A DNA stretch of 64,000 nucleotides. It comes from Polycyclovorans algicola TG408. GTDB lineage: Bacteria; Pseudomonadota; Gammaproteobacteria; Nevskiales; Nevskiaceae. The stretch covers positions 1,234,830 to 1,298,829 of the forward strand of contig NZ_JOMH01000001.1 in assembly GCF_000711245.1 (NCBI RefSeq). Direction: 5' to 3'. A program made the position numbers and the translations under genes. A model generated the notes under the pieces. That model was not told the origin of the DNA, did no database searches, and was given only the letters and a program-made list of their open reading frames with translations. Shown piece by piece: positions 8,425-12,573 of this stretch. The first letter of the stretch is position 1, and every line of letters starts with the position of its first letter.

Positions 8425-8441
8425 TGCACCGATCAAGTGCA
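8425..8441. promoter_or_regulatory. NtrC-type palindrome (site 1)
   Basis: TGCACC-GATCA-AGTGCA matches the 17-bp NtrC enhancer architecture TGCACY-N5-RGTGCA, with both half-sites intact. Established knowledge: NtrC binds such sites as tandem dimers upstream of sigma-54 promoters in nitrogen-limited cells. It lies about 260 nt upstream of the porin start. Confidence 0.5.
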
Positions 8442-8501
8442 CGTGATCTTGATGCACAGCGGATCGAGGCCCTGCGAACGACGGTGATATAGGGTCACTG
8501 A

Positions 8502-8518
8502 TGCACCGAGTTGGTGCG
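8502..8518. promoter_or_regulatory. NtrC-type palindrome (site 2)
   Basis: TGCACC-GAGTT-GGTGCG matches the NtrC consensus with only the final base differing; the core GCACC-N5-GGTGC is perfectly symmetric. It is 77 nt (centre to centre) from the first site, i.e. about seven helical turns, so both could face the same side of the DNA. Confidence 0.55.
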
Positions 8519-8683
8519 ACTTGTGCCGCGTGATCCCCAACCGGGCGACGGACGTGCATCTGTCAGTCGTTGCGCTCATCCATTCGGTGCAAGAATCCGT
8601 TGTGTCTTTTCTCGCTGCAATGCAGCAGGCGCCGAGCCGAGCCGGGTCGGCGCTTTAGCACCTTCACATTCCCAGGAGAATCA

Positions 8684-9775
8684 ATGATGCGTTCAACGCG
8701 ATTCATCGCGGCAGGCAGTGTTTTGGCGATGTTCTCGATGCAGGCGGTGGCCGTTGAAGTCGGGGCCCGCCTCTATGGCGACCTGCGCTACTCGGTGGGG
8801 CATTCCGATGTTCAAGACGGCGCCGATGACACCGAGTTCAGCAGCAACAACAGCCACCTGGGCGTTGCGCTGAGCGGCGCCGAAGGCGACATCAGCGTCA
8901 CCGGTGTTTACGAGTTGGGCATCGACGCCGGTAACACCACCAACGGTAGCGACGACACCCGGCAGGCTTACCTGAGCGTCGGCTCGCCGTTCGGCAGCCT
9001 GGCATTGGGGCAGCTCGAAACCGCTTACAAGCGGGCCGGGCAACAGCTGGACCCGTTCTACAACACCGGTGTGGGGACCATCACCGGCACGCCGTTCGGC
9101 AATGCCGGTGCGCCGGTGCTGGGGCCGGGCTTTGGCCTTTCGGCACTGACCTCCGACACGGTGGACCAGGGACTGGTCGCCGATCAGGTGGCGTACAAGT
9201 CGCCCACCATTGCCAATCTGACCGGCAACGCGGCCATCATTTTTGGCGACGATGATGGCGGCGATGGCGGGCAGGAAGATTTCGGCGTGGGCGTTGAGTA
9301 CGCGGCCGACGGCATTCTGTTCGGGGTGCAGTATCTCGATATCCGTTCTACGGTGAACGGCACGCCCAGCGCCAACTTCAACGCCGGATTGCCCAACGCA
9401 ACCAAGGCAACCCGCGTTTACGGCGGATACGCGACTGAGGTGTGGGGCCTGGGCGCCTCTTGGGAGCCACTGGAGATTGAAGGCGCGCCCGATCGCGACT
9501 ATTACTTTTTGAGCGGCACCTTGAGCCTTAATGACCGAACCCGGCTGGCCGCATCGCTGGGCTATGTCGAAAACGTGCCGTTTGAAGGCCAGAGCCTGTC
9601 ACTCGGGGTGTTCTACGACGTGTTCGCCGGGTTGGAGGCCTACGCCGCCGCACGTTACTCCGACCGCGACGAAGACGCGATCCTCGCCAATGGCTTTGCC
9701 GTGGCCGACGGCCCGTCAGTGGGTGAGTTGGTGTTGGGCATCAACTACCAGTTCAGCCTCGCCGAGCTGTTCTAA
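8684..9775 (+). CDS. Outer-membrane porin (general Gram-negative type)
   Basis: 363 residues with a signal peptide (MMRSTRFIAAG ... AVA) and an N-terminal strand VGARLYGDLRYSV. The rest alternates polar and aromatic residues as in a 16-stranded trimeric porin, contains an acidic glycine-rich loop (DDDGGDGGQED) and ends in ...YQFSLAELF with a C-terminal phenylalanine, the recognition signal for the BAM complex. It should form a diffusion channel for small solutes. ATG 8684 follows AGGAGA by 4 nt; a second ATG follows immediately. NtrC-like palindromes upstream and the glnK-amtB genes nearby suggest nitrogen-responsive expression, but the solute is unknown. Confidence 0.85.
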   Translation: MMRSTRFIAAGSVLAMFSMQAVAVEVGARLYGDLRYSVGHSDVQDGADDTEFSSNNSHLGVALSGAEGDISVTGVYELGIDAGNTTNGSDDTRQAYLSVGSPFGSLALGQLETAYKRAGQQLDPFYNTGVGTITGTPFGNAGAPVLGPGFGLSALTSDTVDQGLVADQVAYKSPTIANLTGNAAIIFGDDDGGDGGQEDFGVGVEYAADGILFGVQYLDIRSTVNGTPSANFNAGLPNATKATRVYGGYATEVWGLGASWEPLEIEGAPDRDYYFLSGTLSLNDRTRLAASLGYVENVPFEGQSLSLGVFYDVFAGLEAYAAARYSDRDEDAILANGFAVADGPSVGELVLGINYQFSLAELF

Positions 9776-9795
9776 GCCGCCCAAGCGGCGCATCC

Positions 9796-9822
9796 AAAAG
9801 CCGGGCAGCGCCCGGCTTTTTT
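9796..9822 (+). terminator. Intrinsic terminator after the porin gene
   Basis: AAAAGCCGGGC / GCCCGGCTTTTTT hairpin with T tract, 20 nt after the porin stop. Confidence 0.9.
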
Positions 9823-9860
9823 GTGACATATTTTTGTGACAGACTTCGCTCGCTTTCAGT

Positions 9861-9876
9861 TGGCACGCAGATTGCT
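9861..9876 (+). promoter_or_regulatory. Sigma-54 (-24/-12) promoter of the TorF-type porin gene
   Basis: TGGCACGCAGATTGCT matches the sigma-54 consensus TGGCACG-N4-TTGCW at every conserved base, with GG (9862-9863) and GC (9874-9875) exactly 10 nt apart. Transcription would start near 9888, leaving a leader of about 60 nt before the ATG at 9948. Sigma-54 promoters need an enhancer-binding activator; NtrC is the likely one given the neighbourhood. Confidence 0.85.
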
Positions 9877-10667: not shown

Positions 10668-10694
10668 CGATTCACTGGTCTGCAGTTGCTACGC

Positions 10695-10719
10695 AAAGCC
10701 GCCTTCGGGCGGCTTTTTT
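10695..10719 (+). terminator. Intrinsic terminator after the TorF-type porin gene
   Basis: AAAGCCGCC-TTCG-GGCGGCTTTTTT, a UUCG-loop hairpin with T tract. It lies between the converging porin and comM genes and may act weakly on the opposite strand too. Confidence 0.9.
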
Positions 10720-10734
10720 GTTGGGCTTTCAGGC

Positions 10735-12237
10735 TCAGGGGGCGCGGTAGCGCAGCGCTTCGGCGAGATGCGGTGTCGTGACGTGCGTCTCGCCCGCGAG
10801 GTCGGCAATGGTGCGCGCCACCCTGATCACCCGGTGCAGCCCACGGGCGCTCAGACCAAGGCGGGTCATGGCCTGCTGCAGTAGGGTTTGACCGGCCGCG
10901 TCGAGGGCGGCGTGGGTGTCCAGTTCACCGGCGTGCAACGCGGCGTTGGGTTTGTGTTGTCGCGCAATCTGCCGGGTGCGGGCGTCCATGACCCGGGCGC
11001 GCACCATTTCGGTGCGCTCGGCCCCGGCGTCACGACCCGGCCCCAGCAAGGCGCTTTCATCGACCCTCGGCACGCCAACGTGCAGGTCAATGCGATCCAG
11101 AAACGGGCCCGACAACCGACCCTGGTAGCGGCTCACCTGGTCGGGCGTGCAGCGACACTGTCCTTTGGGGTCACCGAGATGCCCGCAAGGGCAGGGGTTC
11201 ATTGCTGCAATCAGTTGAAACCTCGCCGGAAAGCGCGTCTGCCGCGCCGCGCGGGCAATGTCGATGTGGCCGGATTCCAGCGGCTCACGCAGTACGTCGA
11301 GGACGGCACGCGGAAACTCCGGAAGTTCGTCGAGAAACAGCACGCCGTGATGCGCCAGGGTGATTTCCCCGGGGCGCGGCTGCGCGCCACCGCCCACCAA
11401 CGCCACGCCGGACGCGGTGTGGTGCGGTGACCGGTAAGGCCGCAGCCCCCATAGGCTGGCGTCAAAGCCTTCGTGGCTGATGGAGCGGATGCTGGCGACC
11501 TCCAGCGCCTCGGCCTCGCTCAGCGGCGGCAACAGCCCCGGAAGCCTTGCGGCAAGCATGGATTTGCCGGCGCCGGGCGGGCCAACCAGTCGCATCGAAT
11601 GCCCGCCGGCTGCAGCAATTTCCAGCGCACGTTTGGCCTGATGCTGGCCGCGCACGTCGGCAAGGTCGGGCTGGTCACGCGCAGCCGCGGGTGGCGATGG
11701 GGGTGGGGCCGGTTCACACGGCAATGCACCCTGATGGAGCGCCGCGACCAGTGCACTTAAATGGTGCATCGGGTGCAAGCGTGCCGCTCGGCAAAGCTGG
11801 GCCTCCGCGAGGTTTTCCGCGGGCAGAACCAGGCCGCGCCGGTGTCGGGTGGTCTGCAGGGCGGCGGGGAGTGCGCCCTGCACGGCGCGAATTTCACCCG
11901 ACAGCGACAATTCGCCCAGCACTTCGAAGTCGTCAAGGCAGCCGGCCGGCAGGGCCTGCTGCGCCAGCAGAATGCCCAGCGCCATGGGCAAGTCGAAACG
12001 CCCGCCGTGCTTGGGCAGGTCGGCGGGGGCCAGGTTGATGGTGATGCGCTGCTGCGGAAAGCTGAAACCGCTGACGGTCAGCGCCGCACGCACCCGGTCT
12101 TTGGCTTCGCGAACCGCCGCCTCGGGCAGGCCGACGATGTTCAGCGCCGGCAGGCCATTGCCCAGATGCACTTCGACCCGCACTTCTTCTGCCACCAAGC
12201 CGTTCTGCGCGCGGGCCCGGACGGTGGCAAGACTCAT
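10735..12237 (-). CDS. comM: ComM/YifB family Mg-chelatase-like AAA+ ATPase
   Basis: 500 residues in the order expected for ComM: an N-terminal ChlI/Lon-S16-like domain (residues 1-170), an AAA+ core with Walker [10 protein letters not shown] (about 217-225), the [14 protein letters not shown] and LFLDELPEF blocks (Walker B/insert), a four-cysteine-type [15 protein letters not shown] zinc-binding segment, and a C-terminal Mg_chelatase_C helical domain. ComM is a hexameric helicase that promotes branch migration during natural transformation. The gene is convergent with the porin and followed upstream by ubiK; both point opposite to glnK. Full length, no damage. Confidence 0.93.
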
Positions 12238-12246
12238 GAGCGGCGG

Positions 12247-12501
12247 TTAGCGCCGCTGCGGCGCGTGCTGTTCCAGCGCAGAGAGTCGGGCTTCCAGCGC
12301 TTTCAGGCGGGCCTGGGTACGGGCCAGCAGCTCGGCTTGCACGTCAAAGCGTTCGCGGGTGACCAGGTCGAGCTTGTCGAGGTGGGCGCCGAGCATGACG
12401 CGGAAGTTGTCCTGCAATTCACGCCGCAATTGGCTCATGCCCGGCGGCAAGGCCTGGGCGAGGCGGTCAGCAAGCGCATCCAGAGAGCGAGGGTCGAGCA
12501 T
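12247..12501 (-). CDS. ubiK: Ubiquinone biosynthesis accessory factor UbiK (BMFP/YqiC)
   Basis: 84 residues. The pattern [51 protein letters not shown] and a C-terminal coiled coil ([20 protein letters not shown]) match YqiC/UbiK, a membrane-peripheral trimer that with UbiJ supports aerobic ubiquinone synthesis. ATG 12501 is used rather than the TTG two codons upstream. It is 10 nt upstream of comM, the same pairing as in many gammaproteobacteria. Its divergent partner is glnK. Confidence 0.9.
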
Positions 12502-12557
12502 TTGCAAAGTTTAGCGCGGGCCGGGTGCTGTGCGCTGGATCACGGTTTTCGGCCGTT

Positions 12558-12573
12558 TGGCACGGTCCCTGCT
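12558..12573 (+). promoter_or_regulatory. Sigma-54 promoter of the glnK-amtB operon
   Basis: TGGCACGGTCCCTGCT keeps the full -24 element TGGCACG and a -12 CTGCT, with GG (12559-12560) and GC (12571-12572) separated by exactly 10 nt. It ends 72 nt before the glnK ATG. glnK-amtB is a classical NtrC/sigma-54 operon, so context and sequence agree. Confidence 0.82.

Follow-up and report, generated by a model that had tools for sequence, protein, structure and literature searches.

What controls an outer-membrane porin gene that lies close to the genes for ammonium uptake, and from where on the DNA does that control act? The question is raised by a block of genes in Polycyclovorans algicola TG408. 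The whole stretch analysed, here called the window, is 64,000 nucleotides long (contig NZ_JOMH01000001.1, positions 1,234,830–1,298,829 of the forward strand), and coordinates are those of the window unless a genome or locus is named. The block contains, in order, genes for a cytochrome c, a Gram-negative porin (porin 1), the putative porin TorF, ComM and UbiK (the last two on the opposite strand), the P-II signal protein GlnK, the ammonium transporter AmtB and a second P-II protein. An earlier analysis from the letters alone, the sequence-only reading, took the block to be under nitrogen control. We find that this stands for torF and glnK-amtB, where promoter and NtrC palindromes are conserved across the class, and is unproven for porin 1, for which no sigma-54 promoter was found. 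The reading that we regard as probable is that the block contains a rearranged torF–glnK–amtB module on which NtrC acts from remote sites.

Linkage of torF to ammonium genes across the class

The class was represented by 184 genomes drawn evenly from it, 92 of which have a protein of the TorF family (Gcw_chp). We compared 100 Gcw_chp places, from 91 genomes, together with their surroundings; 12 places were omitted, namely G161, the torF of the window itself, and any second copy within one stretch or one genome. Direct succession of torF, glnK and amtB, in this order and on one strand, is seen in 43 of the 100 places. A sigma-54 promoter (at most two mismatches) precedes torF in 34 of these 43, and comM or ubiK lies upstream on the opposite strand, again in 34. 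Conservation in related genomes had been suggested as a check on the sequence-only reading, and the torF promoter does recur in them.

Genes for P-II and an ammonium transporter (Amt) occur anywhere in the stretch in 49 places, and 36 of these have the torF promoter, the reverse strand giving 1 and shuffled sequence 0.5. An NtrC palindrome (at most two mismatches) is present within 300 bp before the promoter in 26 of these 36, where shuffling gives an expectation of 0.45, and mostly starts 79–146 bp upstream of it. The places without both P-II and Amt nearby also include some with a sigma-54 promoter (21 of 51), of which 8 have an NtrC palindrome.

The second sample was made up of named genomes, from which the best 80 loci by likeness to TorF were taken. 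Linkage is seen in 55 of the 80, including loci from Herminiimonas, Noviherbaspirillum, Azoarcus, Denitromonas, Zoogloea and Cupriavidus. In 54 of the 55 the promoter reaches a score of at least 11, and 40 also have a proximal NtrC score of at least 13; no proximal NtrC site was found in the three linked Cupriavidus loci listed.

These comparisons support the view that torF–glnK–amtB is an old module under NtrC and sigma-54, not peculiar to this genome, and the sharing of this type of control by torF and glnK-amtB appears well supported by conservation. In the window torF does not stand directly before glnK-amtB. The same genes are present, their order being split by comM and ubiK, which were identified on the minus strand by profile searches and are absent from the sequence-only reading. 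Throughout the window's family, a torF beside comM sits beyond comM-ubiK, mostly with its own sigma-54 promoter, and glnK also has a promoter. The likely history in this family would be the splitting of an old operon.

It is worth adding that torF copies not directly before glnK-amtB have a sigma-54 promoter in 23 of 57 cases (L213, L215, L217, L219, L227, L229 and L230 among them). A cytochrome c match lies just downstream of torF in L219, L227 and L230. Two genomes, G048 (L109:6967–8232) and G038 (L116:6031–7468), each have two adjacent torF matches.

Promoters and NtrC-type sites in the window

The sigma-54 pattern scanned was TGGCACG-N4-TTGCW, and the NtrC palindrome pattern was TGCACC-N5-GGTGCA. 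Scoring matrices were built from 36 torF promoters and 35 NtrC-type sites, all from other genomes of the class. The torF promoter (TGGCACGcagaTTGCT, 9861–9876, plus strand) has no mismatch to the sigma-54 pattern and the glnK-amtB promoter (TGGCACGgtccCTGCT, 12558–12573, plus strand) has one, both with the spacing GG-N10-GC. The earlier description, of a full match to the consensus at 9861, a near match at 12558 and an exact 10-nt spacing in each, is therefore correct. It also placed two NtrC-type palindromes 77 nt apart before the first porin; both are there, with one mismatch each, although the strongest site, at 11752 inside comM, was overlooked.

By matrix, the two highest sigma-54 scores in the window are those of the torF promoter (17.4) and the glnK promoter (20.5). 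The five highest NtrC scores (16.3–20.7, at 11752, 8502, 11000, 8425 and 13644) all fall within 8425–13660. Twenty simulated 64-kb windows gave a total of 6 NtrC and 8 sigma-54 scores of at least 15, or 0.3 and 0.4 per window. The NtrC palindrome with at most one mismatch is enriched in the genome, which has 19 separate sites where the control has 2; this 5.2-kb block holds 4 of the 19. Sigma-54 matches with at most two mismatches are rarer in the window (6) than in shuffles (17.5). With sigma-54 counts not clearly enriched, the case for the promoters stands on their position and conservation and not on the number of motifs.

The genome encodes NtrC (699.9 bits against a cut-off of 558.6, one protein being over the cut-off), two sigma-54 factors (RpoN; two PF04552 matches, at G000:C1:1381178–1381636 and 3246369–3246839) and seven proteins with a match resembling sigma-54 activators. 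The RpoN gene at 1381178 adjoins an NtrC-like activator gene at 1381794, and with this neighbour perhaps forms a separate regulon.

An NtrC-type site within comM

The window's best NtrC-type site, site A (TGCACTTAAATGGTGCA, 11752–11768, score 20.7), lies inside the coding sequence of comM, its centre being 798 bp before the −24 element of glnK. We compared 57 loci including the window. In 43 of them (40 from the family and 3 from the order) a divergent glnK lies no more than 2.5 kb from comM; 13 have comM but no such glnK, several being at contig ends, and 1 has no comM. Of the 43, 41 have a glnK promoter that scores at least 11, and 15 have an NtrC site within 200 bp of the glnK promoter. Two loci of genus g4, with a site centred at −36, were counted as proximal, although the limit of −30 would exclude them.

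No strong palindrome is near either promoter in the window, where the best proximal NtrC score is −3.4 for glnK and 1.2 for torF. For glnK the best proximal score is −1.0 in G002 and 5.2 in G001, so that the window's genus is without a proximal site. The only strong NtrC sites for the window's glnK promoter are at −798 (site A) and −1550 (site B).

A palindrome at the same comM codons as site A is present in 10 of the 43 loci, 783–1002 bp before the glnK promoter. These loci belong to four genera, with three in the window's genus, four in g7, two in g12 and one in g6. Nine score at least 15. The tenth, G001, was counted as carrying site A at 14.3, though this is under the threshold of 15 applied to 91 comM genes of wider samples (37 + 54, possibly overlapping), none of which has an internal score that high. 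Among the 10 loci the codons on either side vary, as do some of the amino acids themselves. With amino acids and codon use kept constant, site A would reach a score of at least 15 by chance with a probability of 0.001–0.05 per genome. When segments of comM are ranked by synonymous identity, site A comes 20th of 425 (g7 against g12 and g6), 56th of 460 (window against G002), 117th of 405 (four genera) and 214th of 383 (window against g7 and g12).

Site A and a proximal site never occur together (0 of 10 loci with site A have a proximal site, against 15 of 33 without; Fisher 0.008). If G001 is left out, site A is present in 9 of the 43 loci and the Fisher value is 0.017. The exchange is seen in the sister genomes G007 and G018: in G007 the site is in comM and none is proximal, and in G018 a proximal site is accompanied by no more than half of the comM palindrome. 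Site A is also found in two g12 genomes that gave no torF match at E 1e-10, which ties it to glnK. Among the best ten sigma-54 scores per strand, none near site A or near 8425–8518 exceeds 7.3 on the plus or 10 on the minus strand.

On the basis of these observations we tentatively propose, at somewhat under an even chance, that the comM coding sequence doubles as a natural long-range enhancer, which would replace the proximal site of glnK-amtB in four genera. The same proposal has torF, and possibly glnA, of the window's genus likewise controlled from 1.2–1.8 kb away, and remote enhancers would then be the rule in its nitrogen regulon.

Other strong matches within genes were set aside. Site B (11000–11016, inside comM, score 19.4) is explained by the protein and its codon use: synonymous codons give a score of at least 15 with P = 0.18, so that site B was probably not selected as DNA. 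The match at 13644–13660 inside amtB (score 16.3) has two mismatches in G002, where it scores below 15, and is probably due to chance. Further scores above 15 inside comM, at −1650 and −858 in G001 and at −1144 in G014, are at other codons and were excluded from site A.

In the glnA region of the same genome (G000:C1:450142–451901, L291), glnA has a sigma-54 promoter with a score of 17.8 and no proximal NtrC score above 6.2 upstream. There is an NtrC score of 12.7 just downstream of the promoter, at +20, and three NtrC sites are found 1.57–1.68 kb downstream, in the gap ahead of what by its sequence appears to be ntrB. This arrangement fits the pattern of remote sites suggested for the genome. 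A weaker sigma-54 site (11.9) lies beside the three NtrC sites in the gap.

Porin 1 and the control of torF

The palindromes before porin 1 (TGCACCGATCAAGTGCA, 8425–8441, score 18.3, and TGCACCGAGTTGGTGCG, 8502–8518, score 20.2) start 259 and 182 bp before its start codon, and their centres are 1428 and 1351 bp before the −24 element of torF. All three genomes of the genus that were compared have NtrC-type sites ahead of porin 1. They occur as pairs in two (77 and 83 bp apart, those of G002 scoring 14.5 and 16.6) and as a single site of 18.1 in G001. In these three genomes porin 1 is placed between cytochrome c and torF. Homologues of porin 1 are present in 14 of 61 genomes, and adjoin torF only in the window, G001 and G002.

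We looked for a sigma-54 promoter of porin 1 itself and rejected it: the scan of both strands found none (best score 4.1), and the alignment of the window with G002 shows no conserved box. At 12 homologous porin loci outside the genus no upstream sigma-54 score reaches 12, and only one locus (L100) has an NtrC-type score of at least 14 in the stretch. The suggestion of the sequence-only reading that both porins are under this control is therefore not supported for porin 1. The sole sigma-54 promoter found downstream of the 8425/8502 pair and before comM is that of torF, 1.35–1.43 kb off. As no sigma-54 promoter was found for porin 1 and that of torF is the nearest downstream, torF is favoured as the target, and we infer that the pair most likely acts on it. 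Within 260 bp before the torF promoter, no NtrC score exceeds 4.1 in the three genomes of the genus.

Both genomes of genus g2 have an NtrC-type site (L107:8550–8566 and L108:5348–5364) 1.07–1.18 kb before the torF promoter, past cytochrome c. It is located in a short gap beside a gene which, judged by eye, resembles one for a CoA-binding protein.

The genes and their products

The leftmost gene of the block, for cytochrome c (7903–8361, plus strand; Cytochrome_CBB3, 8e-11), lies within a longest open reading frame of 7840–8361. In many loci of the family that have no porin 1, this gene directly precedes torF. Porin 1 (8684–9775, plus strand) matches Porin_4 at 6e-24, with 85.8 bits against a cut-off of 27. 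TorF, of 239 amino acids, is encoded at 9948–10667 on the plus strand and matches TIGR02001 (2e-35; 122.5 bits against a cut-off of 47.15) and PF09694 (3e-33). On the minus strand follow comM/yifB (10735–12237; TIGR00368, 1e-176), which encodes a Mg chelatase-like AAA ATPase and holds site A, and ubiK of the BMFP family (12247–12507; PF04380, 9e-25).

The remaining genes are on the plus strand: glnK (12646–12984; NF007946, 181.6 bits against a cut-off of 181), amtB (13004–14362; TIGR03644, 2e-192), whose product is of the marine subtype of ammonium transporters, and the second P-II gene (14532–14870; PF00543, 7e-32). In the sister genome G001, glnK is interrupted (L105:9801–11372), residues 1–34 being encoded at 9801–9902 and the remainder from about 11109, some 1.2 kb on. 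In the gap that separates amtB from the second P-II gene, G002 has a sigma-54-like site with one mismatch (L106:10735–10750); the corresponding interval of the window, 14363–14531, has no sigma-54 site at two mismatches or fewer.

The predicted model of TorF is a 12-stranded β-barrel with a mean predicted local distance difference test (pLDDT) score of 83.9. Its barrel fold is like that of the 12-stranded porins KdgM (Z 16.8, root mean square deviation 2.2 over 164 residues) and NanC (Z 15.5), although the identity to KdgM is only 12%. FapF and autotransporter barrels score almost equally (Z 15–16), and the match to KdgM therefore indicates a barrel and not a substrate; any cargo named for TorF would be conjecture. 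It is reasonable, from the model, to regard TorF as a porin, that is, a putative outer-membrane channel. The model of porin 1, made from 3 sequences, is unusable (pLDDT 29.9). No relatives of solved structure were obtained by sequence for either TorF or porin 1.

Alternative explanations

A number of points weigh against a module controlled from remote sites. Enrichment of the sigma-54 pattern is unclear, as the whole genome has 24 + 18 matches with at most one mismatch and 20 + 15 to the reversed pattern (42 against 35). This would suit chance matches in ordinary sequence, an explanation which we consider very improbable, given that the promoter is kept at the same place across the class and that NtrC palindromes outnumber their control by 19 to 2. 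For site A, the Fisher values ignore kinship, and the comM tree, counted over 23 rows labelled as having site A or a proximal site, needs three changes of site label. The chance of a score of at least 15 at site A is 0.038 for the window's own comM, and its synonymous identity is unremarkable in two of the four comparisons. Neither a proximal site nor site A is present in 18 of the 43 loci, 16 of which have a good glnK promoter, and strong NtrC sites may therefore be dispensable. Together with the glnA upstream regions of the family, 25 of 29 scorable ones being without a proximal NtrC score of at least 14, this favours a reading in which the torF and glnK promoters are controlled by NtrC and sigma-54 with weak upstream sites or none, site A and the sites before porin 1 being fortuitous or used in some other way. 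We think this unlikely, because the palindrome is retained at one position of comM in four diverged genera, no palindrome of score 15 is found in the 91 other comM genes, and site A never coexists with a proximal site.

The 8425/8502 pair, the putative sites for torF, could instead serve porin 1. The pair might regulate porin 1 itself, as the sequence-only reading would have it, through a promoter of an unrecognised type. Its position close ahead of the porin 1 start codon, the presence of NtrC-type sites there in all three genomes of the genus, and the porins responsive to NtrC or nitrogen described in the available parts of two Burkholderia papers (PMC5491218, PMC10117139) all speak for this. 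The low sigma-54 score, the lack of a promoter box shared by the window and G002, and the near absence of such sites at the 12 loci outside the genus speak against it, and we judge it a lesser but real possibility. Activation of the torF promoter by an enhancer-binding protein other than NtrC would account for the low NtrC scores in the 260 bp before it. It would also be in keeping with the seven sigma-54-activator-like proteins of the genome, and with the places without both P-II and Amt, where 21 of 51 have a sigma-54 promoter and only 8 of these an NtrC palindrome. Where P-II and Amt are present, however, the palindrome precedes the promoter in 26 of 36, mostly 79–146 bp upstream, and another activator seems to us improbable. 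Finally, the equation of TorF with the protein NlmA of Herbaspirillum seropedicae, made below, is drawn by inference from position and from gene order in relatives.

Proposed mechanism

We therefore return to the rearranged torF–glnK–amtB module with NtrC acting from remote sites. Under nitrogen shortage, phosphorylated NtrC would activate sigma-54 RNA polymerase at 9861 for torF (TGGCACGCAGATTGCT) and at 12558 for glnK-amtB (TGGCACGGTCCCTGCT), and an outer-membrane pore would be produced together with the inner-membrane pair for ammonium uptake and sensing. In this lineage torF would have come to lie beyond comM-ubiK with its own sigma-54 promoter, no strong NtrC sites remaining near the promoters. 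NtrC bound at a distance would act through looping of the DNA; glnK would be served by site A (−798), and torF, most likely, by the two palindromes preceding porin 1 (−1351/−1428).

TorF/Gcw_chp is a widespread porin family whose function is listed as unknown in Pfam, and it would hereby gain a physiological setting. In much of the class TorF occurs with the ammonium sensor and transporter pair under a promoter of the nitrogen-starvation type, which suggests that the permeability of the outer membrane is probably tuned in step with ammonium uptake. A link of this kind had been put forward for the block from the sequence; it survives for torF with glnK-amtB, given the class-wide conservation, and is unproven for porin 1, which has no sigma-54 promoter that we could find. 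For studying the move of an enhancer, the related genomes G007 (with the change) and G018 (without it) would be well suited.

Comparison with known systems

The nearest known system is the nlmA-glnK-amtB operon of Herbaspirillum seropedicae, which according to the available part of its description is NtrC-dependent and strongly induced under nitrogen limitation, and likewise has a gene for a membrane protein ahead of glnK-amtB (PMC3023670). It is a single operon, whereas in the window torF is separated from glnK-amtB by comM-ubiK and has its own promoter, with porin 1 preceding it and the strong NtrC sites at a distance. In the second sample, torF of Herminiimonas and Noviherbaspirillum occupies the position of nlmA, with a sigma-54 promoter. 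We take these two genera to belong to the same bacterial family as H. seropedicae. From this position and gene order, NlmA would be a TorF protein.

Other porins respond to nitrogen, as far as the available parts of the papers go. The porin BCAL3473 of Burkholderia cenocepacia is raised in nitrogen depletion and appears in the table of the NtrC regulon; in an ntrC deletion the second paper gives it as lowered, but its discussion gives it as raised (PMC5491218, PMC10117139). It differs in having sigma-54-like boxes with an extended spacer, adjacency to glnK-amtB is not stated in those parts, and we liken it to the present case by description only. Porins of Pseudomonas putida are raised under nitrogen limitation (PMC3325844, available part). 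No TorF-type gene was seen at glnK-amtB in the available parts of the accounts for Xylella (PMC3224663), Pseudomonas stutzeri (PMC8443478) and P. putida (PMC3325844). A published link between TorF/Gcw_chp and nitrogen was not found among the best matches of a literature search that covered few subscription journals. The link had been called rarely documented, and as far as the search reached this is fair: we found the one NtrC-dependent operon, nlmA-glnK-amtB, and, in papers seen in part, the separate nitrogen-affected porins of Burkholderia and P. putida.

For NtrC enhancers within coding sequence, the best matches of the literature search, again with few subscription journals covered, gave only the relA case of E. 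coli. There, in the available parts of the papers, rlmD contains an NtrC site, at −838 to −649 relative to the start codon of relA, and a sigma-54 promoter that drives relA (PMC4066584, PMC4591121). The likeness to comM is that the NtrC site is within a neighbouring gene. The difference, on the same partial sources, is that the relA promoter is within about 260 bp of the site, whereas here the promoter is beside glnK and about 0.8 kb from it.

The enhancers of E. coli glnALG likewise combine a sigma-54 promoter with NtrC sites, and NtrC acts there over at least 1000 bp when the distance is increased (PMC7408454, available part). In glnALG the natural sites precede the start by about 90 and 140 bp; the present promoters have no strong one nearby, and site A is at −798, inside the coding sequence of another gene. 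If the comM site is indeed an enhancer, nature would have repeated the site-moving experiments of E. coli, with the enhancer far off inside another gene. The type of control, by NtrC and sigma-54, is established, and is known experimentally for this module in one organism under another name; what would be new here is its breadth and the remote position of the sites.

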